64,000 bases of DNA from contig JAQBQE010000001.1 in NCBI GenBank assembly GCA_028287135.1, positions 1 to 64,000 of the forward strand, in the 5' to 3' direction. This document shows, piece by piece, positions 10,577 through 63,988 of this stretch (position 1 is the stretch's first letter; every line of letters starts with the position of its first letter). A model generated the notes under the pieces. The model saw only the letters and a program-made list of their open reading frames with translations, was not told the DNA's origin and did no database searches. The translations under genes were made by a program, and so were the position numbers. The stretch comes from Myxococcales bacterium (GTDB lineage Bacteria > Myxococcota_A > Polyangia > Haliangiales > Haliangiaceae).

Positions 10577-11089
10577 ATGCTACATTTGCACCCCAGCGTG
10601 ACGTTCGATCGGGGTGCGTTCTTGAGCTTCTTGCTCATCGGTTCGATGGGTTGCGGCCCGTCCGCGCCCAGCGCGACCGGCACCGCGAACCCGGTCGAGA
10701 CCAGGAAGATGTTCGTCGTCGTGCCGGCCGAGAGCGATGCATTTCCGCTCGCGGCCCGCGCCACGACCGAACGACTTCGCCGCGCTCGGGTCAAAGGTTT
10801 CCAGGAGCCGGAGGTGTCCAAGGTGTCCTTGGAGGTCGTCCAGCTGTCGATCGAATGCGTCGAGCCCACCCCGACCTGTTACGAGGCCGTCGGCAAGGAG
10901 CTGTCGGCGAGCCAGCTGCTGTTCGCCGAGATCGATCCCGGCCCCAAGCGCGATCAGGTCAAGGTCACCGTGACGCTGTTCGATGTCGAGGGCCGGAAGC
11001 GCAAGCGCGCCGTCGCCAAGATCTTCGCGACCGAGGACGACGTGCCGTTCGGCGTCGCTGACGTCGTGTCGGAGGCGACCAAGCCGTGA
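10577..11089 (+). CDS. putative lipoprotein, unknown function
   Basis: ATG start MLHLHPSVTFDRGAFLSFLLIGSMGCGPSA (lipobox-like); overlaps next gene by GTGA. Confidence 0.6.
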   Translation: MLHLHPSVTFDRGAFLSFLLIGSMGCGPSAPSATGTANPVETRKMFVVVPAESDAFPLAARATTERLRRARVKGFQEPEVSKVSLEVVQLSIECVEPTPTCYEAVGKELSASQLLFAEIDPGPKRDQVKVTVTLFDVEGRKRKRAVAKIFATEDDVPFGVADVVSEATKP

Positions 11090-13500
11090 GCAACAAGCCC
11101 GTGCCGCCCGGTTCGACTCCGACCGAGGAGCTCGTCGAGATGGAGGCGATGGACCTCGACGAGTGGGAGAAGGATCAGCACACACCGCAGGCCAACGACG
11201 CCAAGCTCGCGGCGCTGGTCAAGCAGAGCGCCGAGGCACCGCCCGCGCCGCTACCACCGGCGCAGCCGCGCAAGACGCAGACCGTGGCGCGTGTCGTCGC
11301 CAAGCCACCGGTCACACCGCCGGGGCCGCCGCCCCCGACGCCCGGTGCGCGGGCACCGGGTGCACCGCCGGTCGCGCCCCCGTCGAACGGGCCCAATCCG
11401 TTCGACGGTCCGACGATGCGCAATGCGGGCGCCGCGCTCCCCGTGAAGCGCGGCGACGCGGCAACGCCCGTGTCGCGGCTCGCCGATGGCGCGGCCACGC
11501 CCGCCGGTGGGGTTCCGGCCCGCACGCCGGCGATCAGCCGCAACACGACGAACCGCGCTGCGACGCCGGTCGGCGGAACGCCGGCGCTCGGCCCCAAGGC
11601 GACGCAGGCCATCGGTGCGGTGACGGTCACGCCCGCCGCGCCTGCGCCCGCGCCGCCGGTGGATCCCAAGGCGACCCAGGCGATCGGTCAGATCACGCGC
11701 GCGCCCGCCGCGGCAGCGCCCGATCCCAAGCGCACGCAGGCGATCGGCGCGGTGACGGTGACGCCCGCGATGGGGGTTCCGGGCTCGGCGACCAGGACCG
11801 CCGCCGCACTTCGCGATCTGTCGACACCGGCGGGCGGTAGCCTGACGCCGGCAGCCGGTACACCTGCGAGCGCTCGACCGGCCACGGCGCCGACCGCACC
11901 ATCGTCGCTGTCGTCTCCTCCCGGCGCGCGACCGGCGTCGAGCCGCGCCGCGACGCCTGCCGCCGGCACTCCGTCGAGTACGCGACCCGCCATGGCACCG
12001 GGCCGCGCCGCGACGCCTGCCGCCGGAACGCCGAGTGCGATCAGCGCTGCGAAGCCTGGCGCGCCGGCGAGCCGCACCGCGACGCCCGCCGCTGGCGTCG
12101 CCGCACCGATCAGGACGGGCACCGTGCCGACCCGCACCGCAACGCCCGTCGGTGGCGTGCCGGCAGCGACGGCACCGCGCACCACGACATCGGTCGGCGG
12201 CGCCCCCTCGACGCCTCCACGCGCGACGCTTGCTGCGGGTACGCCGATCGCCAAGGCCGCGACGCCGGCCCCCGAGGAATCAGAAGGCTGGTCGCTGCCC
12301 GACGACTTCGATGAGGTCGCCGCGCAGGAGTGGAAATCGACACCGGCGAAGATCGACGTGGCTCCTCCGACCGCGCAGGCCGTCACCCCGGTGCCCGCCG
12401 AGGCAGCGTCGTCGCCCGAGCCGCAGGAGGAATCGTTCGCGAGCCTCGCCTTCACGCCGGAGCCAACCGCGGCGCATGCGCGCGCCTTCGGTCCCCAGCC
12501 CACGCCGGTGGCCGCGGCGCCCGTCGTCGCCGAGGCTCCGGTCGAGGCTGCTGCTGTAGTGGTGCCCGAGCCGCCGGCGCCGAAGGCACCCGCACCTCCG
12601 CCGGCCGCGCCGCCGCTGCAGCCGTTCGTCACGCAGTCGTCGGTGCAGCCGCACTCGCAGCCGATCCAGCCGATCATGGGCGCGCAGCAGCTACCGCCGG
12701 TGCAGCCGATGCAGCCGGCCGCCCCGCCGATCGAGCCGACCTACCCGCGAGCGCCGGTCCGAGCACCCGAGCCCGAGCCGGTGTTCGAGGTCCGTCCCCA
12801 GCGTCACGCCACGACCGACTCGCATCGTGCGATCGGCGGGCGCTCGAAGAAGCCGCTCCTGATCATCGGTGGTGTGGTGGCCGCGATCGGCATCGTCCTC
12901 CTCATCGCGCTGACGCGCGGCAAGGACGAGACGAAGCCGGTGGCCAAGGCGCTGCCCACGGATCCGACACCGCCGATCAAGGAGCCGGTGGTCACGCCGC
13001 CCGATCCCCCGACCGATGTCGCGGTCACCGACCCGGTGCCGACGGATCCGACGCCGACCGACCCGACGCCCACCGATCCGACGCCGACGACGAAGGTTCC
13101 TGGCCGGGTCGATGGCCGGATCGATGGAAAGACCGGCGGCATCAAGCGCCCGGGTACGGGCAAGATCCGGGGCGGCACGAATACACCCGTCGAGACCGGT
13201 GGCCCGTCCGATCCGATCGGCGAGCCGGTCGCGGCTGACAAGGCGGCGAAGGCACGCGCTGCCTATAACGTCGGCAACCAGAAGCTGTTCGCCGGAGACG
13301 CCGACGGTGCGATCGTCGCGTACCGCCAGGTGATCGGGCTCGGCTCGTCCTCGGGATATCGCGGACTCGGGCTGGCCTACGCCCAGCAGGGCGACAAGGC
13401 CAACGCGATCGCGGCGTTCAAGAAGTACCTGTCGTCCTCGCCAGGCGCGAAGGACGTTCCGCTGATCAAGAAACGCATCGAAGCGCTCCAGGGCAAGTAG
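11086..13500 (+). CDS. low-complexity Ala/Thr/Pro-rich protein with one TM helix and C-terminal TPR-like segment
   Basis: Multiple RxATPxxGxP repeats, three KxTQAIG repeats, TM KKPLLIIGGVVAAIGIVLLIAL, TPR-like AARAAYNVGNQKLFAGDADGAIVAYRQVI. Confidence 0.7.
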   Translation: MSNKPVPPGSTPTEELVEMEAMDLDEWEKDQHTPQANDAKLAALVKQSAEAPPAPLPPAQPRKTQTVARVVAKPPVTPPGPPPPTPGARAPGAPPVAPPSNGPNPFDGPTMRNAGAALPVKRGDAATPVSRLADGAATPAGGVPARTPAISRNTTNRAATPVGGTPALGPKATQAIGAVTVTPAAPAPAPPVDPKATQAIGQITRAPAAAAPDPKRTQAIGAVTVTPAMGVPGSATRTAAALRDLSTPAGGSLTPAAGTPASARPATAPTAPSSLSSPPGARPASSRAATPAAGTPSSTRPAMAPGRAATPAAGTPSAISAAKPGAPASRTATPAAGVAAPIRTGTVPTRTATPVGGVPAATAPRTTTSVGGAPSTPPRATLAAGTPIAKAATPAPEESEGWSLPDDFDEVAAQEWKSTPAKIDVAPPTAQAVTPVPAEAASSPEPQEESFASLAFTPEPTAAHARAFGPQPTPVAAAPVVAEAPVEAAAVVVPEPPAPKAPAPPPAAPPLQPFVTQSSVQPHSQPIQPIMGAQQLPPVQPMQPAAPPIEPTYPRAPVRAPEPEPVFEVRPQRHATTDSHRAIGGRSKKPLLIIGGVVAAIGIVLLIALTRGKDETKPVAKALPTDPTPPIKEPVVTPPDPPTDVAVTDPVPTDPTPTDPTPTDPTPTTKVPGRVDGRIDGKTGGIKRPGTGKIRGGTNTPVETGGPSDPIGEPVAADKAAKARAAYNVGNQKLFAGDADGAIVAYRQVIGLGSSSGYRGLGLAYAQQGDKANAIAAFKKYLSSSPGAKDVPLIKKRIEALQGK

Positions 13501-13541
13501 CGCTTTCCTCCGCGGCGAGTGTGGGCTACAACGCGCGCCCC

Positions 13542-13904
13542 ATGCGGACGCGCCTCGAGCGGTTGTACCGGTTCGAAGCGGCACACTTTCTCCCGAGAGT
13601 GCCGCCGGGCCACAAGTGCGCGCGGATGCATGGCCACAGCTACTGCATCGAGGTCGTGATCGAGGGCGAGATCGACCCCGAGCGCGGCTGGGTGATGGAC
13701 TTCGCCGAGATCGACGAGCAGGCGTCACCGCTCGTGAAGCAGCTCGACCATCAGGTGCTCAACGAGATCGAGGGCCTCGTGAATCCGACGAGCGAGCTCC
13801 TCGCAGTGTGGTGGTGGACCAAGCTCGCGCCACGGCTGCCGGGCCTCGTCGAGGTCGTGGTCTCCGAGACGACGACCTCGCGCTGCATCTATCGCGGCGC
13901 GTGA
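13542..13904 (+). CDS. queD: 6-carboxy-5,6,7,8-tetrahydropterin synthase family protein
   Basis: RFEAAHFLPRVPPGHKCARMHGHSY Zn/catalytic motif, LDHQVLNEI, VSETTTSRCIY. Confidence 0.88.
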   Translation: MRTRLERLYRFEAAHFLPRVPPGHKCARMHGHSYCIEVVIEGEIDPERGWVMDFAEIDEQASPLVKQLDHQVLNEIEGLVNPTSELLAVWWWTKLAPRLPGLVEVVVSETTTSRCIYRGA

Positions 13905-13919
13905 GGTAACGTTTCGCGC

Positions 13920-14798
13920 GTGGGTCCGAACCTTCGCGTGATCACGCTGAACCTGTGGGGCACCGAGCCTCCGCTCCAGCACAGGCTCGACCTCGCGATC
14001 CGTCAGCTCCGCGCGCTTGCCCCGGACGTCGTGTGTCTGCAGGAAGTGCGGCCGCTCGATGGCAAGCAGGGAACGACGACCGCCGAGGTGATCGCCGAAG
14101 CGCTCGGGCTCAGCGCTCACTACGCGGTCGCGGTCGCATGGGAGGCCGGCGTGCACGGCAACCTCCCGGCAGGGCAGGAGGGTCTCGCGATCATCGCGCG
14201 CTCGATCCGCGATGCGCGCGTGCTGCCGTTGCCCGAGCCGCGTCCGGGTGACGCGCGGGTGCTGCTATCGGCGCAGATCGACACCGACGGCGGACCGATC
14301 TGGATCCACACCACGCACCTTCACTACCGGCTCGACGACGGGCTCGCCCGCGAGCACCAGGTGCTCGCGATCGACGAGGCGATCCGCGGGTTCGGGCGGA
14401 CCAACGACAGTGCTCCGCAGATCCTGTGTGGCGACTTCAATGCGACGCCCGACAGCGACGAGATGCGGTTCCTCCGCGGACTCACCACCCTCGGCGGCCG
14501 GCGCACGCACTTCCAGGATGCGTGGCTCCGTCTACATCGCGAGCCGATTCCCGGCGAGGGGCCCGCCGAGGGCATCACGTGGTCGAGCGAGAATCGATTC
14601 ACGCGCCCGTTGCGCTCTCTCGATATCGATCGCCGCATCGACTACGTCTACGCGACGAGTCGCAAGAAGGACGGTCGCGGCACCGTCCACGTCTCGAAGG
14701 TCGTGATGACCGATCGCGAGGGCGACGGCGAGCACCAGATCTGCGCGAGCGATCACTACGGCGTCCTCGCGGACGTCCAGGTGATGCCGAACGCCTGA
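13920..14798 (+). CDS. endonuclease/exonuclease/phosphatase family protein
   Basis: LRVITLNLWG..., VCLQEVRPL, CGDFNATPDS, IDYVYA, SDHYGVLADV. Confidence 0.88.
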   Translation: MGPNLRVITLNLWGTEPPLQHRLDLAIRQLRALAPDVVCLQEVRPLDGKQGTTTAEVIAEALGLSAHYAVAVAWEAGVHGNLPAGQEGLAIIARSIRDARVLPLPEPRPGDARVLLSAQIDTDGGPIWIHTTHLHYRLDDGLAREHQVLAIDEAIRGFGRTNDSAPQILCGDFNATPDSDEMRFLRGLTTLGGRRTHFQDAWLRLHREPIPGEGPAEGITWSSENRFTRPLRSLDIDRRIDYVYATSRKKDGRGTVHVSKVVMTDREGDGEHQICASDHYGVLADVQVMPNA

Positions 14799-15470
14799 CT
14801 ACTTCGGAAGCGCGGCTTCGACGGCTGCGATCACGGTCGGATCATCGGGCGTCGTCTGCGGATGGAACCGCGTGATCTTGGTGCCATCCGCACTGACCAC
14901 GAACTTCTCGAAGTTCCACCGGATGTCGCCGGTGTAGCCCTTGGCATCGGCGAGCGCGGTCAGCTCCTTGTAGATCTCGTGACGGCCCGTGCCGTTGACG
15001 TCGACCTTCTCCATCATCGGAAACGTGACGCCGTAGGTCGTCGAGCAGAACTCCTCGATGTCCTGGGCGCTGCCCGGCTCCTGGCCACCGAACTGGTTGC
15101 ACGGGAACCCGACGACGGTGAAGCCCTTCGGGCCGTACTTCTTCTGCAGGGCCTCGAGCGTGGAGTACTGCGGCGTCAGCCCGCACTTCGAGGCGACGTT
15201 GACGAGCATCAGGGCCTTGCCCTTGAAGTCGGCGAGCTTGGCGTCCTTACCCTGCAGAGTCTTGAGTGCCACGTTCCACATCGGAATCTCCTTGTCGACG
15301 GTGACCGGGGGCGGCGCGGTGCCGGCCGGAGGGAGGTTGACGGGGTCCGCCTTGGCGGCCGTCGGACCCTGCACGACCTGCGGCGGGGCAGGATCCTTCG
15401 GCGCTGGAGGCTCCTTCTTCGCGCACGCAGACGCAGCCAGGACCGTTGCAACCAGGGCGATCCGCTTCAT
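14799..15470 (-). CDS. lipoprotein-anchored glutathione peroxidase-like protein
   Basis: Lipobox VLAASACAKK; MLVNVASKCGLTPQYSTLEALQKKY, GFPCNQFGGQEPG, WNFEKFVV. Confidence 0.9.
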   Translation of the reverse strand: MKRIALVATVLAASACAKKEPPAPKDPAPPQVVQGPTAAKADPVNLPPAGTAPPPVTVDKEIPMWNVALKTLQGKDAKLADFKGKALMLVNVASKCGLTPQYSTLEALQKKYGPKGFTVVGFPCNQFGGQEPGSAQDIEEFCSTTYGVTFPMMEKVDVNGTGRHEIYKELTALADAKGYTGDIRWNFEKFVVSADGTKITRFHPQTTPDDPTVIAAVEAALPK

Positions 15471-15528
15471 GGGCTGCACCATACAATAATGAGCCACCAG
15501 CGCCACGTCGTTTGCTATACGTCCGGCG

Positions 15529-18474
<2,946 letters not shown>

Positions 18475-18903
18475 ACAACGCGTGATCCCGCCGGGGTCAC
18501 GCACGTGGTCCGCGTGGATCCAACGTTCTACGAACGACTCGAGGAGCTCGATCTCGAGCGACTCGGTGGGCGCGTCGACCAGATCTCCGTCGAGGTCGTC
18601 GGCCATGACTTCGGCAATCGGGAAGCGATGGGGGACGTCGGTGCTACCGGCTGGGTCCGGCTGCAATGGGACACTGCACCGCCGTTGCTGATGGGCGCCT
18701 CGATCGTGCGCACGGATCTCCCGGGTACGATCATCAGCGCCGCCGGGCTCTTCATCGGTTACGACGTCGCCTACCAGGTCGCACAGCGGTTCACGGTACG
18801 TGCCCAGGTCTCCTACGGATCACGTGACGGTGGGTCACACGTCGGCGGCGGCGTCGGTACGGCCGTCGACTTCCAGGGCGGCGTCGCATGGTATGTACGC
18901 GCC

Positions 18904-55435: not shown

Positions 55436-55701
55436 CAGCGGGGACGGCGCGCGTACGTGTCGGTGACGATCTTCGCGATCGCCTGGTCGGATAGGGCCGC
55501 GGGCCGCTGGTGCGCACCCTTGCCGGGCTGGTCGAACTCCCACGCGACCGTCGCCGCGAGGCGCTGCGTGGCATCCGCCTCCGTGTAGCCGAGGCGGAAC
55601 AGGAGCCCGGCGCGGCTCGCGAGCTCGGCGGCAGCGACCTTGGCGCGCTGATCGGCGCCGTCGGTGCGAGGTGGCGCGGTGTTCATCCAGGAGAAGGCCA
55701 T
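55435..55701 (-). CDS. hypothetical small protein
   Basis: Open frame overlapping the start of the downstream lipoprotein gene; no family recognised. Confidence 0.45.
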   Translation of the reverse strand: MAFSWMNTAPPRTDGADQRAKVAAAELASRAGLLFRLGYTEADATQRLAATVAWEFDQPGKGAHQRPAALSDQAIAKIVTDTYARRPR

Positions 55702-55721
55702 GGCGCGAGTATACTGTGGCG

Positions 55722-56927
55722 GTGAGGGTGCTGATCGCGTGCGCGCTGATCATCGTGATCCCGTGCGAAGCGCGGGCCGATGGCGCAGGTGTGATCGCCG
55801 TCAGCAAGGGGGAACGGGCCACCGTCGGTGCGGCCATGGCGCAGGCGATGACGGGCAGGGCGGGCCGGATCGTCGAGGATGCCGTGGGCGAGGCGCGAGC
55901 GGCGCTCAGCGCAGGCGCAGTCCCGATCGAGCGCGTGCAGAAGTTTCGCCGGGTGGTCGATCTGGTCAACGAGGGCTGGCGCGCGTACACGCGGGTCGCG
56001 GTCGAGGTCGCTGCCGGTCGGCTCGCCGCGGCGCGCACCGAGGCCGAGCCACTGGTGGCGCTGCCGGGTGGCCCCGAGCTCTATGCCGACGCCGCGCTGC
56101 GCCTGGGTGCCGTGCTCGGGCATCTCGGTCGGCGCGCGGAGGCACAGGCGGTCCTCGCGCTCGCGATCGCACTCGACCCCGAGCGACCGATCACACTCGC
56201 CGAGTTCTCGCCGGATGTCGTCGAGGCGGTCGATGCGGCGCGCGCCGCGCCGGTTGCCTTGCAGCGGGTTCGCATCGTGACCCGGCCCGCCGGTGCGCTG
56301 ATCCGGATCGACAGCAAGGACGTCGGTCGGTCGCCGCTCGAGGTCCAGCTCACGCGTGGCCAGCACCTCGTGATCGCGCGCGCGCCGATGCATCATCCGG
56401 CGGTGCAGGGCGTGCCGATCGATGCAGCCTCCGTCGAGATCGATCTCGAGCGTGACGACGAGGCAGCGCGGATCGCGGCGGGCGCCACGCAAGGGCTCGA
56501 GGAGCCGGCGGCCCAGCAGCTGATCACCGCCACCCTGCGGTTCGCGGATCTCGACGAGGTGGTCCTGGTCGCCGACACCGTTCGTCGGGGTGGGCCGACG
56601 CTGCTCGTCCAGCGCTGCGCGGGCGTGCCGGCCCGGTGCAGCGCGGTCGTCGACGTCGGCTATGGCGATCGCAGCGGGCTTGCGGCTGCGGCGCGCACGG
56701 CGTGGGATGCGGCGCGCAGTGGCGACCTCCGGTATCCGCCGTCGGTCCTCGGCGAGCGTGACGGTCAGACCGATGACGGCCGCTGCAAGGCATGCCGAAA
56801 TCCGTGGCTGTGGACCGGCGTGGGAGCTGCGGTCGTCGCCGCGACGGTGATCACGATCGCCGTCGTGTCAGGATCGCAGCCTCCACCGATCGTCGGCGTC
56901 GATGGCGGCGCGTTCGGTGCGCGTTAG
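55722..56927 (+). CDS. PEGA-domain protein with C-terminal TM
   Basis: Signal VRVLIACALIIVIPCEARA; PEGA-like VRIVTRPAGALIRIDSKDVGRSPLEVQLTRGQHLVIAR; TM WTGVGAAVVAATVITIAVV. Confidence 0.7.
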   Translation: MRVLIACALIIVIPCEARADGAGVIAVSKGERATVGAAMAQAMTGRAGRIVEDAVGEARAALSAGAVPIERVQKFRRVVDLVNEGWRAYTRVAVEVAAGRLAAARTEAEPLVALPGGPELYADAALRLGAVLGHLGRRAEAQAVLALAIALDPERPITLAEFSPDVVEAVDAARAAPVALQRVRIVTRPAGALIRIDSKDVGRSPLEVQLTRGQHLVIARAPMHHPAVQGVPIDAASVEIDLERDDEAARIAAGATQGLEEPAAQQLITATLRFADLDEVVLVADTVRRGGPTLLVQRCAGVPARCSAVVDVGYGDRSGLAAAARTAWDAARSGDLRYPPSVLGERDGQTDDGRCKACRNPWLWTGVGAAVVAATVITIAVVSGSQPPPIVGVDGGAFGAR

Positions 56928-56934
56928 CCGTCGC

Positions 56935-58131
56935 CTACGGGGCCGACCAGTTACAGCCGAGCTCGTCCTGCGCGATGTGGCAGCGCAGGCACATCCGGCG
57001 ATTGCCCCGATCGAGCGCCTCGCAGCGAGCACTTCCGCGCCAGCCGCGCGGGTGCGGTGATGCGCCGAGCTTGCCGGGCTCGTTGCTGTGGCAGGTCAGG
57101 CAATCCTCCTCGCGGTGACACGAGGCGCAGCTCGTGATGTTCTTCCGTGCCTCGCGTGCGTGGCCGTTCGGTCCCATCCCGGCGGTGGCCCAACCTGGCG
57201 GGTGAAACGCGCCGCCCGGCTGCGCGGCATCGAAGCCCGACGTGACGCGCGTGCCGACCCCGGAGCGCTCGTGACAGGCGACGCAGAACGACTGCGCGCG
57301 ATGACACGCGGAACAGTCAGGCGTGCCGCGCTTGGCCTCGACGCCGTGGGTCAGCACGTAGTTTCCTGGATGGAACTCCATCGGCTTCACGACGCCCTGG
57401 TGACACGCGAGGCACTCGGAGCGGTCGTGACACGCGGTGCACGTGGCGCCGACCTGCCGGGCCTCCTGCTTGTGATCTCTCGCAAAGCTCGGGCCGTGCG
57501 CATCACCGAGCCCGGTGCTGCGCGGCACCAGCGCGCCGTGCGCGAACTGGGTCTCGATCAGTCCGCCGAGCTTGGTCACGTGGCAGTCGGCGCATCGCCG
57601 CTCCTGCGTTCCATCGGTGTGGCACGACAGGCAGGAGCTCATCGTCGGCAGCTGCCGTGTCGTCGCGAGGTCGACCTTGGTCATGTCGCCGTGGCAGGTC
57701 ACGCAGGCCGTCTTGACGTGTGCGCTGTGATCGAACTTGAGCGGTGGCGGCGTCAGGTAGACCCGCTCGACGACGCGCTCGGGCGTCCATCCGGGATGGC
57801 ACGCGACGCATGCGGCAGGTGGCGCTCCGGCGACGACCCTGGTCGGCTCGGCGCGATCGATCGGATGACACGCGCGGCACTCCGCCTCGGTCGGGATCAG
57901 GTTGTCCACGGCGGATCGTGACGTGGCCGCGGCCGCGTGACAGCTCGCGCACGTGGCGCCGCGGGCGAGGTGCATGCGATGCGAGAACGTGAGGGGCAGG
58001 CGCTGCTCGGGATACACGACGGGTGACCACGAGGTGGATCCGGTGACCGCGTCGTCGCGTTCGGCGCGCACGACCGCGGCGCCGAGCCCCGCGGCGATCA
58101 CGAACAGTGGGAGGAACCGGAGGAACTTCAT
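56935..58131 (-). CDS. multiheme c-type cytochrome with 13 CXXCH motifs
   Basis: CASCH, CRACH, CVACH, CVTCH, CLSCH, CADCH, CTACH, CLACH, CSACH, CVACH, CASCH, CLTCH, CLRCH; N-terminal hydrophobic segment. Confidence 0.93.
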   Translation of the reverse strand: MKFLRFLPLFVIAAGLGAAVVRAERDDAVTGSTSWSPVVYPEQRLPLTFSHRMHLARGATCASCHAAAATSRSAVDNLIPTEAECRACHPIDRAEPTRVVAGAPPAACVACHPGWTPERVVERVYLTPPPLKFDHSAHVKTACVTCHGDMTKVDLATTRQLPTMSSCLSCHTDGTQERRCADCHVTKLGGLIETQFAHGALVPRSTGLGDAHGPSFARDHKQEARQVGATCTACHDRSECLACHQGVVKPMEFHPGNYVLTHGVEAKRGTPDCSACHRAQSFCVACHERSGVGTRVTSGFDAAQPGGAFHPPGWATAGMGPNGHAREARKNITSCASCHREEDCLTCHSNEPGKLGASPHPRGWRGSARCEALDRGNRRMCLRCHIAQDELGCNWSAP

Positions 58132-59720
58132 GGCTCGGGCGCGAAGGCGAGGTCGAGGATCGCGAACACCCGCGTCTGGAACTGGTGAATCTGATCGTGA
58201 TCAGCCTCGGCGACCACATGCAGGCCGACCGAATCGGCGATCCGCAGCGAGCTCGATAACACCGCGGAGCTGGTGACGAAGTCGGAGCGATCTTCGCGCC
58301 GAACCCCGAGCACGATCACGCGCCCGCGCAACCACAGCGACGGCCGCGCCTGCCACGCGAGCTCTCCGGTGCCGCCGATCCGACGCCCGCCGTAGCCGTC
58401 GTCCCACAGGCCATCGATCCGTCCGCGCACGCCGCGAGCGAGCGGATGCTCGACGCCGGCGTCGACGCCCCCGGCGAACGCTCCATCCTCTGCGTTCGCG
58501 TAGCGGCGGAGCCAGCCGTTCGCGCGAATGCGCAGCGCGCCGGCAAACTGGTAGCCGAGCCGCAGATCGGTGGTCGGCTCGATCGAGAACGCATTGAAGA
58601 TCGAGTCGCCGTCGAACGTGGGCAGGAAGTACTCGACCGTGGGCTCGACGATGTGATCGCCGCGACGCACCCGGATTCCTGCATCGGCCCGATCGATCGC
58701 GGCATGGAGCAGCGACAGCCGCGCGTTCGCATACGGCGAGATCGCGAACGATCCAGCGCGCAGCTCGCCGTGCACGCGCGCGTGGATGCGCTCCTCGTTG
58801 ACGCCGGTCGCCGGTGCTTGCCCGGCATCGTCGGGATACAGCCCGAGATCCGGGTAGGGCAGGCGATCGACCTCGTCGAACACGCCGACGGTCTCGGACC
58901 ACGTCCGCCGGTACCCGATCTCCGCGCCGATCCGACGCGTCCGCGAGGTCGCGACGGTGAAGCCGACGGTGGGCTGGCGCACCTGCCGTTGCGGACACAG
59001 CTCGTAGTCACTCGCGAGCTTCGAGCCCGTGATCGTCCGGTTGCGGTCGATCAGCTTCCAGGTGCCGGCCCCAGGGGTGGGGCCCTCGACATACTCCTGG
59101 CAGCCCGCGCCGGAGGTTCCATCGAGCTCGAACGCGGACAGCGCCAGTGGCGAGGCCGCGCGGACCCGCAGGCCCGCGGCCGCAGTGATCGCGAGTGGCA
59201 TCGGTAGCTCGTAACGCAGCGTTCCGCCGTCGAGGCCCGCGCTGCCCCAGCCATCGTCGGCGAGCACGCGGCCGAGCTGCAGGGTCACCCGGTCGTCGGC
59301 GAGGCCCTCGAGCGTCATGTGGGCGTAGAGCACGTCGAGCGCGGCAACCGATTCTGCGAGCTCGGGGATCACGTCGATCGAGTCGCGCTGCACCGACGGC
59401 GTCAGCTTGATCCGCCGCGTGATGAACGTTCCGAAGTCGTGATCGATGCGGAGATAGCTCTGCCACGAGATCCGGAGGCCGCGGTCGGGCAGGCGCTTCT
59501 GCCGGCGCGTCGCGGACAGGTTGCCGACATCCGTGATCCGGAGAGCGAGCGTCTGGCTGTAGCGGCGGCGGCCGAGGAACAGGTCGGGACCAACCAGCCG
59601 GTACTGCCGGAGCTGATACGCCTGGCCGATCGACTGCGCGCGCAGCCAGAACTCGTACGCGTGGGCATCGGAGGTCGTGGCAACCGCGAATGCGATCGCA
59701 GCGACGACGACCCTTCGCAT
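58128..59720 (-). CDS. predicted outer-membrane beta-barrel protein
   Basis: Signal peptide MRRVVVAAIAFAVATTSDAHA; alternating-pattern amphipathic strands (LRLGYQFAGALRIRANGWLRRYAN..., SVGLHVVAEADHDQIHQFQTRVFAILDLAF); ATGA overlap with cytochrome gene. Confidence 0.7.
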   Translation of the reverse strand: MRRVVVAAIAFAVATTSDAHAYEFWLRAQSIGQAYQLRQYRLVGPDLFLGRRRYSQTLALRITDVGNLSATRRQKRLPDRGLRISWQSYLRIDHDFGTFITRRIKLTPSVQRDSIDVIPELAESVAALDVLYAHMTLEGLADDRVTLQLGRVLADDGWGSAGLDGGTLRYELPMPLAITAAAGLRVRAASPLALSAFELDGTSGAGCQEYVEGPTPGAGTWKLIDRNRTITGSKLASDYELCPQRQVRQPTVGFTVATSRTRRIGAEIGYRRTWSETVGVFDEVDRLPYPDLGLYPDDAGQAPATGVNEERIHARVHGELRAGSFAISPYANARLSLLHAAIDRADAGIRVRRGDHIVEPTVEYFLPTFDGDSIFNAFSIEPTTDLRLGYQFAGALRIRANGWLRRYANAEDGAFAGGVDAGVEHPLARGVRGRIDGLWDDGYGGRRIGGTGELAWQARPSLWLRGRVIVLGVRREDRSDFVTSSAVLSSSLRIADSVGLHVVAEADHDQIHQFQTRVFAILDLAFAPEP

Positions 59721-59739
59721 CGAGGCGAACGGTATCACG

Positions 59740-61632
59740 TCACCTCGCGAGGAAGACCGTCTCGACGACCACCCGCGCACCGGTGCCGAGGGCAGCCACA
59801 CCCCATGCGCCACGTTGCCCGCCCTCGACGCTGCACGCCAGCAGCTCGGTGCCACCGAACACGAGTCGTGCCGACGAGCCTGCCAGCTCGAGGCGCGTGG
59901 TGACCGCCACCGCAGGATCGATCGGCGGGACCACCTTGCCGCTGCACAGGGTGCGGGTGGTGCCGCCCGAGCGCTGGACCAGGCGGGCTGCGACGCCGGG
60001 AACGACCTCGGCGACGAGCTCCTGCCCGGGCCCGAGGTGGCGCGCGACGAGGCCGACGCCGCCCTCGCGAACGAGCGTCGTTGCCGTCACCGAGCCGGTG
60101 GTCATCCGTGGCCCGCCGACGAGCGCACGCGCGATCTCCGAGAGCGCGGTCAGCTGCCAGCCATCGGTTCGCGAGACGGTCGCGGGGTCCGGTGCGCTCA
60201 GCACGGTCGTCGTCGCGGTGGTTCCACCGGGGACGACCGTGATCGTTCCCGACTGCGGACCGACCAGCGAGGGGCGGTAGATCCACGCCTGCTGCGATGC
60301 GTTCGCACCGTCGATCACGAGGACACTGCCATCCGCCAGCGCGATCAGCGAAGGCGCGAACAGGGCAGGGGGCGCATCCTCCGCGCGCCCGGTCGGCATC
60401 ACGGTCTGCCAGCGATCACTCGTCGGATCGTAGACCAGGAGCCCCGGAGCCGGCGAGCCGCCGATGCCGACCACGCGACCATCCTCGAGGCCGAGCAAGC
60501 GAACCCCCGCGAGGTCGGGCGCCCTGCTGATCGGACGCGCGATGTCGACGCCGGGTGCGATCACCGACGCGAGCCCGCTCGGGACCGCAGGATCCTCGGC
60601 GAACGCGGTGAGCACGGCGCCGCCTTCGAGCCGCGCTGCTTGCGCGTGGGTGTCCATGATCACGACCGAGCGTTCGGTCTCGAGCGTGAACCGATCCGCG
60701 GCGGTGAGCAGCACGGGGTTCGGCGTTCCGCCGGCGATCACGTACGCACGCTGGCCGGTGTCGTCGATCCCCGTGTCGAACACCGTGGCCCCGGTGCGAC
60801 CTGCTTCGAGCCTGGGCCCGTCGGTGTACGAGCCGAGCTCGCGGGTGTCGTAGATCTTGGTGCTCTTGCGAATGCCGCTGCCGGCGCACACCCCCGCGGC
60901 GACCTCCGCGCAGCCGCCGGCGATCAGGACGTGATCGTCGTCGGTCGCGATCGAGGTGTGGAACGCGCGCGACTCGATCAACACGGACTCCCCGAAGTCC
61001 GCTGGACCGTACAGCGTGATCACCTGACGTGGGCCACCGCTGATCGCCACCCGTCCATCCGGTAGCGGCGCGAGCGCGGTCCCCGCGAACCCGTTCTCGC
61101 CGAGGACCTCCGGCACGTCGATCGCGGTGAACGTCGCGGTCGCGGGATCGTAGTACTCGGCCGTGGACAGCCAGACGCCGGCGGCGTCGTAGCCTCCGAC
61201 GACGAGCACGCCCTCACCCGCGCGAGCGAGCAGTGGTGCGGTCCGTGGCTCGGTCAGCGTGCCGACGGTCGGGCAGAACCCGTTCGGGGGCGCCATGAAC
61301 ACCGGGATCGTCGCCGCGTCGGGGAGGTCCGAGAACGCCAGGACCGCGGTCTTGCCGATCGCACCGATCGCGCCACCACCGGTCACGACCTCGACGCCGA
61401 GCTGCTCGGTATCGGCCGGGAAGTCGGCAAGGTCGACACGCTCCTCGAGGCCGACGGCGCGCGTGACGTCGCGGCTCGACGCGAACGCCGTGACGCGAAT
61501 CCCGGTCGCGCCGCTCGGCCGCCCGCATGCGTGGTCGATCGGCGCGAGCGTCACGCGCGCAGCCGGCTCGCCACAGCCAAGGGCTGCGACGCAGGCCACG
61601 AGGGCACACGAACGGGACACCACCGAGCACAT
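59740..61632 (-). CDS. kelch/beta-propeller-like lipoprotein
   Basis: Lipobox ACVAALGCGEPA; repeats such as GVLVVGGYDAAGVWLSTAEYYDPATATFTAI and RVAISGG. Confidence 0.7.
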   Translation of the reverse strand: MCSVVSRSCALVACVAALGCGEPAARVTLAPIDHACGRPSGATGIRVTAFASSRDVTRAVGLEERVDLADFPADTEQLGVEVVTGGGAIGAIGKTAVLAFSDLPDAATIPVFMAPPNGFCPTVGTLTEPRTAPLLARAGEGVLVVGGYDAAGVWLSTAEYYDPATATFTAIDVPEVLGENGFAGTALAPLPDGRVAISGGPRQVITLYGPADFGESVLIESRAFHTSIATDDDHVLIAGGCAEVAAGVCAGSGIRKSTKIYDTRELGSYTDGPRLEAGRTGATVFDTGIDDTGQRAYVIAGGTPNPVLLTAADRFTLETERSVVIMDTHAQAARLEGGAVLTAFAEDPAVPSGLASVIAPGVDIARPISRAPDLAGVRLLGLEDGRVVGIGGSPAPGLLVYDPTSDRWQTVMPTGRAEDAPPALFAPSLIALADGSVLVIDGANASQQAWIYRPSLVGPQSGTITVVPGGTTATTTVLSAPDPATVSRTDGWQLTALSEIARALVGGPRMTTGSVTATTLVREGGVGLVARHLGPGQELVAEVVPGVAARLVQRSGGTTRTLCSGKVVPPIDPAVAVTTRLELAGSSARLVFGGTELLACSVEGGQRGAWGVAALGTGARVVVETVFLAR

Positions 61633-61647
61633 GATACTCTCGCGGCG

Positions 61648-63492
<1,845 letters not shown>

Positions 63493-63499
63493 AGGCCGC

Positions 63500-63988
63500 T
63501 CATCCGGTGTTGGCGCGCATCGAGCCGCGTCGCCACGCGGCGAACCGGATGAACGCGATGACGATCAGGATCAGCGTCGGGATCGCGAACACGATCGACG
63601 TTCCGATCGCGAGCGCGTAGGTCGACATGAACGGCACCCACGCGAGGTGGATGCCGAACTGATGGAGCCGCCGCCACGTCATGTGCTTCATCCGCTTGCG
63701 GATCGCGGTGATCGACGTGATCGCCATCGCGAACACCGCGATGAACGTCACCACGGCGACCAGGATCACCGGGCTCTGCGAGCGCACGAACGCGGCGGGA
63801 TCCGGTGACGCGAGCCAGAGGATGCCGGCGAGATGAAACAGGTGGGACACGGCGAAGCCAAGGCCGATCCACTTGCGATACGCGAGCAACGTCTTGGTCT
63901 GGCGCGACGGCCAGAGCTGACACGCCGGCCTCGCGACGTACGCGAGCGCGAACATCACGAACGAGGTGCGAGCGGTCCACCGGATCAC
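63500..63988 (-). CDS. ferric-reductase-like/MsrQ-like transmembrane protein (frame open to window edge; probably partial)
   Basis: Multiple TM helices with spaced His (GFAVSHLFHLAGILWL...WRRLHQFGIHLAWVPF). Confidence 0.7.
   Translation of the reverse strand: MIRWTARTSFVMFALAYVARPACQLWPSRQTKTLLAYRKWIGLGFAVSHLFHLAGILWLASPDPAAFVRSQSPVILVAVVTFIAVFAMAITSITAIRKRMKHMTWRRLHQFGIHLAWVPFMSTYALAIGTSIVFAIPTLILIVIAFIRFAAWRRGSMRANTG

Follow-up and report, generated by a model that had tools for sequence, protein, structure and literature searches.

A probable porin-cytochrome conduit of Myxococcota combining a predicted 22-strand barrel with a 13-heme cytochrome

Research on outer-membrane electron conduits has centred on Shewanella and Geobacter. 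Here we report a gene pair from a myxobacterial genome, encoding a predicted outer-membrane beta-barrel and a 13-heme c-type cytochrome, which very probably forms a porin-cytochrome conduit in the outer membrane. This assignment is based on the gene structure, the conservation of the pair, the heme motifs, the ligand histidines and the homology with three-part clusters. The kind is already known; what appears to be new is the branch itself, how widely it is spread, the modular build of its cytochrome and the lipoprotein encoded next to it. Two-gene clusters have been published for Anaeromyxobacter, and the pair described here thus belongs to a known kind, of which it is a widespread variant. 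In the open-licence papers searched, no conduit of such type was found for Polyangia, and Anaeromyxobacter was the only myxobacterium linked to porin-cytochrome genes. If the assignment, which was made from sequence, is correct, a conduit branch would be common to much of Myxococcota, cultured predators included. With Nannocystis and Enhygromyxa among the cultured carriers, its conservation opens extracellular electron transfer in predatory myxobacteria to direct tests.

Gene layout of the locus

The window, i.e. the whole stretch of 64,000 nucleotides that was analysed, is part of a 94.5-kb contig from a 4.8-Mb assembly with an estimated completeness of 59.5%. ORF analysis of the window placed the lipoprotein, barrel and cytochrome genes co-directionally on the minus strand at positions 56935-61632, next to a divergent kinase gene. 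The features are as follows.

56935..58131, minus strand: 13-heme c-type cytochrome, 398 aa, exactly 13 CXXCH motifs (Pfam Cytochrome_C7, 2.3e-17)
57562..58014, minus strand: N-terminal 6-heme module of the cytochrome (residues ~40-190), resembling ActA and QrcA, missing in 7-heme short forms
56938..57534, minus strand: C-terminal 7-heme module of the cytochrome (residues ~200-398), the sole remainder in barrel-adjacent short forms
58128..59720, minus strand: predicted 22-strand outer-membrane beta-barrel, 530 aa with signal peptide (AF2, Foldseek)
58128..58131, minus strand: ATGA stop/start overlap of barrel and cytochrome genes, read from the sequence; 1- or 4-base overlaps in most relatives
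59740..61632, minus strand: kelch-propeller lipoprotein, 630 aa (Kelch_1, 4.5e-8; lipobox Cys20; distribution)
61648..63492, plus strand: divergent Ser/Thr kinase with PEGA domain (Pkinase, 1.5e-37), head-to-head with the lipoprotein gene in relatives

The lipoprotein gene begins with an ATG at 61632 and the last base of its stop codon is 59740, leaving a spacing of 19 bp to the barrel ATG at 59720. Three tightly spaced co-directional genes, 13 CXXCH motifs, a 19-bp gap and an ATGA overlap had been described in the original prediction, and all were confirmed in the sequence. Among the ORFs of the window, the cytochrome was the only one with at least two CXXCH motifs.

The start codons of the lipoprotein and kinase genes face each other ~15 bp apart (61632-61648), and this head-to-head arrangement is conserved in Kofleriaceae. 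The kinase is a conserved neighbour and is not claimed as part of the conduit. On the other side of the locus, a TPR/PEGA protein encoded at 55671-56927 is convergent with the cytochrome and recurs as a locus neighbour. A ferric-reductase-like transmembrane protein (PF01794, 1.7e-11) is encoded at 63500-63988.

Conservation of the pair and architecture of its proteins

Fetched loci were searched with profiles of the barrel, the cytochrome and the lipoprotein. The barrel was present in 72 of 95 genomes, own genome counted. It was directly followed by the cytochrome in 86 distinct myxobacterial loci, and the gene arrangement is therefore not due to chance. Within these loci the cytochrome had 13 hemes in 75, 12 in four, 7 in six and 9 in one, the single 9-heme cytochrome being one that runs off the contig end. 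In most loci the two genes shared 1 or 4 bases, and short gaps separated them in others. Only two barrels were without an assigned cytochrome, and both cases are explained: in the first, the contig ends 458 bp away and a truncated cytochrome follows the barrel, and the second (L094) results from the choice of ORF, the barrel ORF stopping 6 bp before the cytochrome. Named carriers include Nannocystis exedens DSM 71, N. pusilla and Enhygromyxa salina, together with numerous Kofleriaceae or Myxococcales MAGs. In a phylum-wide sample, a match at 1e-40 or better was obtained in 109 of 284 genomes, paralogues included.

The AF2 model of the barrel, built with 58 sequences, had a pLDDT of 84 and a pTM of 0.79. 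Its 22 strands were counted from the DSSP list of the model, and the strand residues mostly alternated between polar and apolar. Foldseek matched the model to TonB-dependent receptors (22 strands) and ushers, the matches listed being outer-membrane barrels; MtrB (6r2q_B) appeared at rank 35 (7.3e-5) and was not favoured over other large barrels. At the sequence level, the window's barrel gave nothing convincing in Pfam, no family match to a plug domain in Pfam and NCBIfam, and no matches in the PDB sequence search. The 58 barrels likewise gave no convincing known family and no MtrB_PioB match against Pfam and NCBIfam. Standard barrel geometry puts the backbone radius at ~19-22 A with 22 strands and at 23-26 A with 26. 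Without a plug, a barrel of 22 strands would leave a very wide opening and the cytochrome is thus favoured as its filling, which is an argument and not a measurement. Lumen-facing strand residues were no more conserved than lipid-facing ones (p 0.87), so conservation alone gives no proof of an insert.

The signal peptide of the cytochrome, read by eye, is likely cleaved after VRA at residue 23, and the protein is not a lipoprotein. Among 50 relatives, the His of all 13 motifs was invariant, as were 11 His outside the motifs, and bis-His ligation therefore fits most of the hemes. NCBIfam returned sub-threshold matches only, the best being QrcA across the first six hemes (3.9e-9; 36 bits against a cut-off of 180 bits), and the DmsE-type decaheme model TIGR03508 scored 18 bits against a cut-off of 192. 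The N-terminal hemes were matched by ActA of alternative complex III in the PDB sequence search (5.2e-10), and the cytochrome family profile matched MtrA (6r2q_A) weakly (6.6e-5). The AF2 model of the cytochrome was weak (pTM 0.56), and Foldseek with this model found only ActA, weakly.

The two modules of the cytochrome differed in conservation, the C-terminal one being somewhat more conserved (42% vs 36% mean identity, heme motifs excluded). Short forms in one family (f34) keep the C-terminal seven hemes only and are still encoded directly downstream of the barrel. Since the 7-heme forms retain this pairing, their sequences suggest that hemes 7-13 cross the outer membrane as a wire and that the six N-terminal hemes are a periplasmic extension. 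Such short forms, without the first six hemes, were seen at loci L116, L134, L138, L139 and L140. One cytochrome thus exists in versions with 7 and with 13 hemes, which offers a natural experiment on the number of hemes needed to cross the outer membrane.

We infer an arrangement in which the lumen of the barrel with its 22 strands would hold the C-terminal seven hemes, carrying electrons across the membrane, and the N-terminal six would project into the periplasm, passing electrons to or from carriers located there or in the inner membrane. Electrons would most likely move outward when oxygen is short; candidate extracellular acceptors are Fe(III), Mn(IV), humics or a separately encoded surface cytochrome.

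The kelch lipoprotein and related clusters

Pfam identified Kelch motifs in the lipoprotein (4.5e-8), and its lipobox (...VAALG/C) places the Cys at residue 20, which is kept in 95% of 19 relatives. The original prediction had proposed this propeller lipoprotein as the surface partner of the conduit; the propeller and the lipobox were borne out, and the partnership was only weakly so, the protein being missing beside most conduits. It was found next to the conduit in 21 of the 86 loci, belonging to Kofleriaceae, neighbouring families and one more distant family (G075). In several loci ~1.7-2.2 kb lie between the lipoprotein and barrel genes, and in one locus (L039) a Peptidase_M19 gene is located between them. 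In a 99% complete genome (G021:C98, L166) the kinase and the kelch lipoprotein are kept, and neither the barrel nor a close cytochrome match was found in that genome. Among the 19 relatives no His or Tyr of the lipoprotein was invariant, one His being kept in 84%. A galactose oxidase-like copper redox enzyme was considered for this protein and rejected, as the Tyr/His copper ligands are not conserved.

The lipoprotein gene occupies the position of the 26-34-heme protein in the related clusters described below, and it adjoins the barrel in Kofleriaceae-type loci, with a 4-base overlap in a few. These features would be expected of an obligate surface subunit standing in for a surface cytochrome. 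However, its limited distribution, the gap to the barrel in several loci and its retention with the kinase in a genome without the conduit make that role rather doubtful. On these grounds, and with no invariant His or Tyr, the lipoprotein was treated as accessory. In Kofleriaceae-type loci it would be an accessory protein of the outer membrane and might serve as a non-heme cap or a docking surface; it may also be an unrelated envelope protein. Only tentatively do we propose a large, undescribed Myxococcota conduit branch with a cytochrome made up of a 7-heme wire and a removable 6-heme arm, in which the non-heme propeller lipoprotein of Kofleriaceae would cap the pore in place of a surface cytochrome.

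In two further families (f32 and f36), a gene for a 26-34-heme protein comes first, followed by a barrel-sized gene and, downstream of it, the gene for a homologous 13-heme cytochrome; the 26-34-heme protein carries a lipobox in the cases with an unambiguous start. Several of these barrels matched the profile of the window's barrel weakly and as a group they were homologous to it (hhalign 98.3%, 1.4e-14); some cytochrome relatives in f32 and f36 adjoin a gene that the barrel profile does not recognise. The arrangement agrees with the classic layout of three-part porin-cytochrome clusters. Clusters of a 26-34-heme protein, a barrel and a 13-heme cytochrome were located at L135, L146, L147, L153 and L154, in other Myxococcota families. 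Together with the near-invariant, mostly overlapping pairing and the predicted 22-strand barrel, the homologous three-gene clusters with multiheme lipoprotein-type cytochromes support the proposed conduit.

A second, larger electron-transfer-type cluster was observed in the window's own genome (L136, G000:C3, positions 10831-18848), near cbb3 oxidase and ccoG genes. It encodes an OmcA/MtrC decaheme lipoprotein (8.4e-119) together with another 10-heme protein, a NapC/NrfH-type three-heme protein and a 27-heme protein. A barrel-like protein and a 13-heme cytochrome that is 29% identical to that of the window are encoded there too, a pair paralogous to the window's. OmcA/MtrC was present in 33 of the 95 genomes, mostly Kofleriaceae. 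It was not found in the family of Enhygromyxa (f10), which has the conduit, indicating that the conduit is independent of OmcA/MtrC.

Comparison with known systems and alternative interpretations

Two-gene Pcc clusters that lack a surface cytochrome and encode a cytochrome of 12 or 14 hemes have been described in Anaeromyxobacter and Kuenenia (Shi et al. 2014, PMC4245776). Published Pcc porins are predicted to have 18-22 strands and Pcc cytochromes to carry 5-14 hemes (PMC4245776); an outer-membrane multiheme cytochrome is present in most, not all, of the published clusters. The locus described here likewise has a barrel gene beside a multiheme cytochrome gene, with 22 strands predicted and 13 hemes. 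A gene for an outer-membrane multiheme cytochrome is absent from the window's cluster and present in the homologous clusters. The closest parallel in layout is the two-gene cluster of Anaeromyxobacter spp. (Group IV, PMC4245776), which is also myxobacterial and comprises a porin and one periplasmic multiheme cytochrome with no surface cytochrome; compared by description, the published cytochromes of two-gene clusters have 338-344 aa and 12 or 14 hemes, against 398 aa and 13 hemes here.

MtrAB, MtoAB and PioAB are similar in that a barrel and a multiheme cytochrome form a unit, but they have 26 strands by structure or 28 by prediction, together with 10 hemes, in contrast to 22 strands and 13 hemes here. 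Assignment to the MtrAB/PioAB type, which the original prediction named as a parallel, was not upheld: by sequence the barrel falls outside the MtrB/PioB family, and the cytochrome is not decaheme. The OmbB-OmaB-OmcB and Ext systems of Geobacter, compared by description, share a barrel (18-22 strands predicted), a periplasmic multiheme cytochrome and an outer-membrane lipoprotein. The surface protein of Omb-Oma-Omc is a cytochrome, whereas the window's family has a non-heme kelch protein or none. ExtH is a non-heme member of an ext cluster.

The direction of electron flow may also be the reverse, the conduit importing electrons by PioAB- or MtoAB-like oxidation of Fe(II) or another donor. Nannocystis and Enhygromyxa, two of the carriers, are aerobes, which would suit import, as would the layout itself, two-gene clusters without a surface cytochrome being common among Fe(II)-oxidising mtr clusters (PMC4245776). 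Homologous clusters elsewhere, however, contain large multiheme lipoprotein-type cytochromes, and the genome under study has an OmcA/MtrC and NapC/NrfH set of the kind usual for export; we consider import unlikely.

The original prediction had named two findings that would count against a conduit, a barrel too small for a cytochrome and without an interface to it, and a cytochrome localised only to the inner membrane in an unrelated complex. The 22 strands predicted by AF2 fall within the range of published Pcc porins, and no genes for such a complex were found beside the cytochrome in the window. The resemblance of the N-terminal hemes to QrcA and ActA could still point to a cytochrome of a periplasmic or inner-membrane quinone complex, with the barrel as an unrelated co-transcribed channel. 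In the alignment with ActA and QrcA, hemes 1-6 align, and hemes 7-13 and the barrel partner are without counterpart. The QrcA score is far under its cut-off, no partner subunit gene of such a complex adjoins the cytochrome in the window, and the short forms drop exactly the QrcA/ActA-like part and retain the barrel, all of which make a quinone complex highly improbable.
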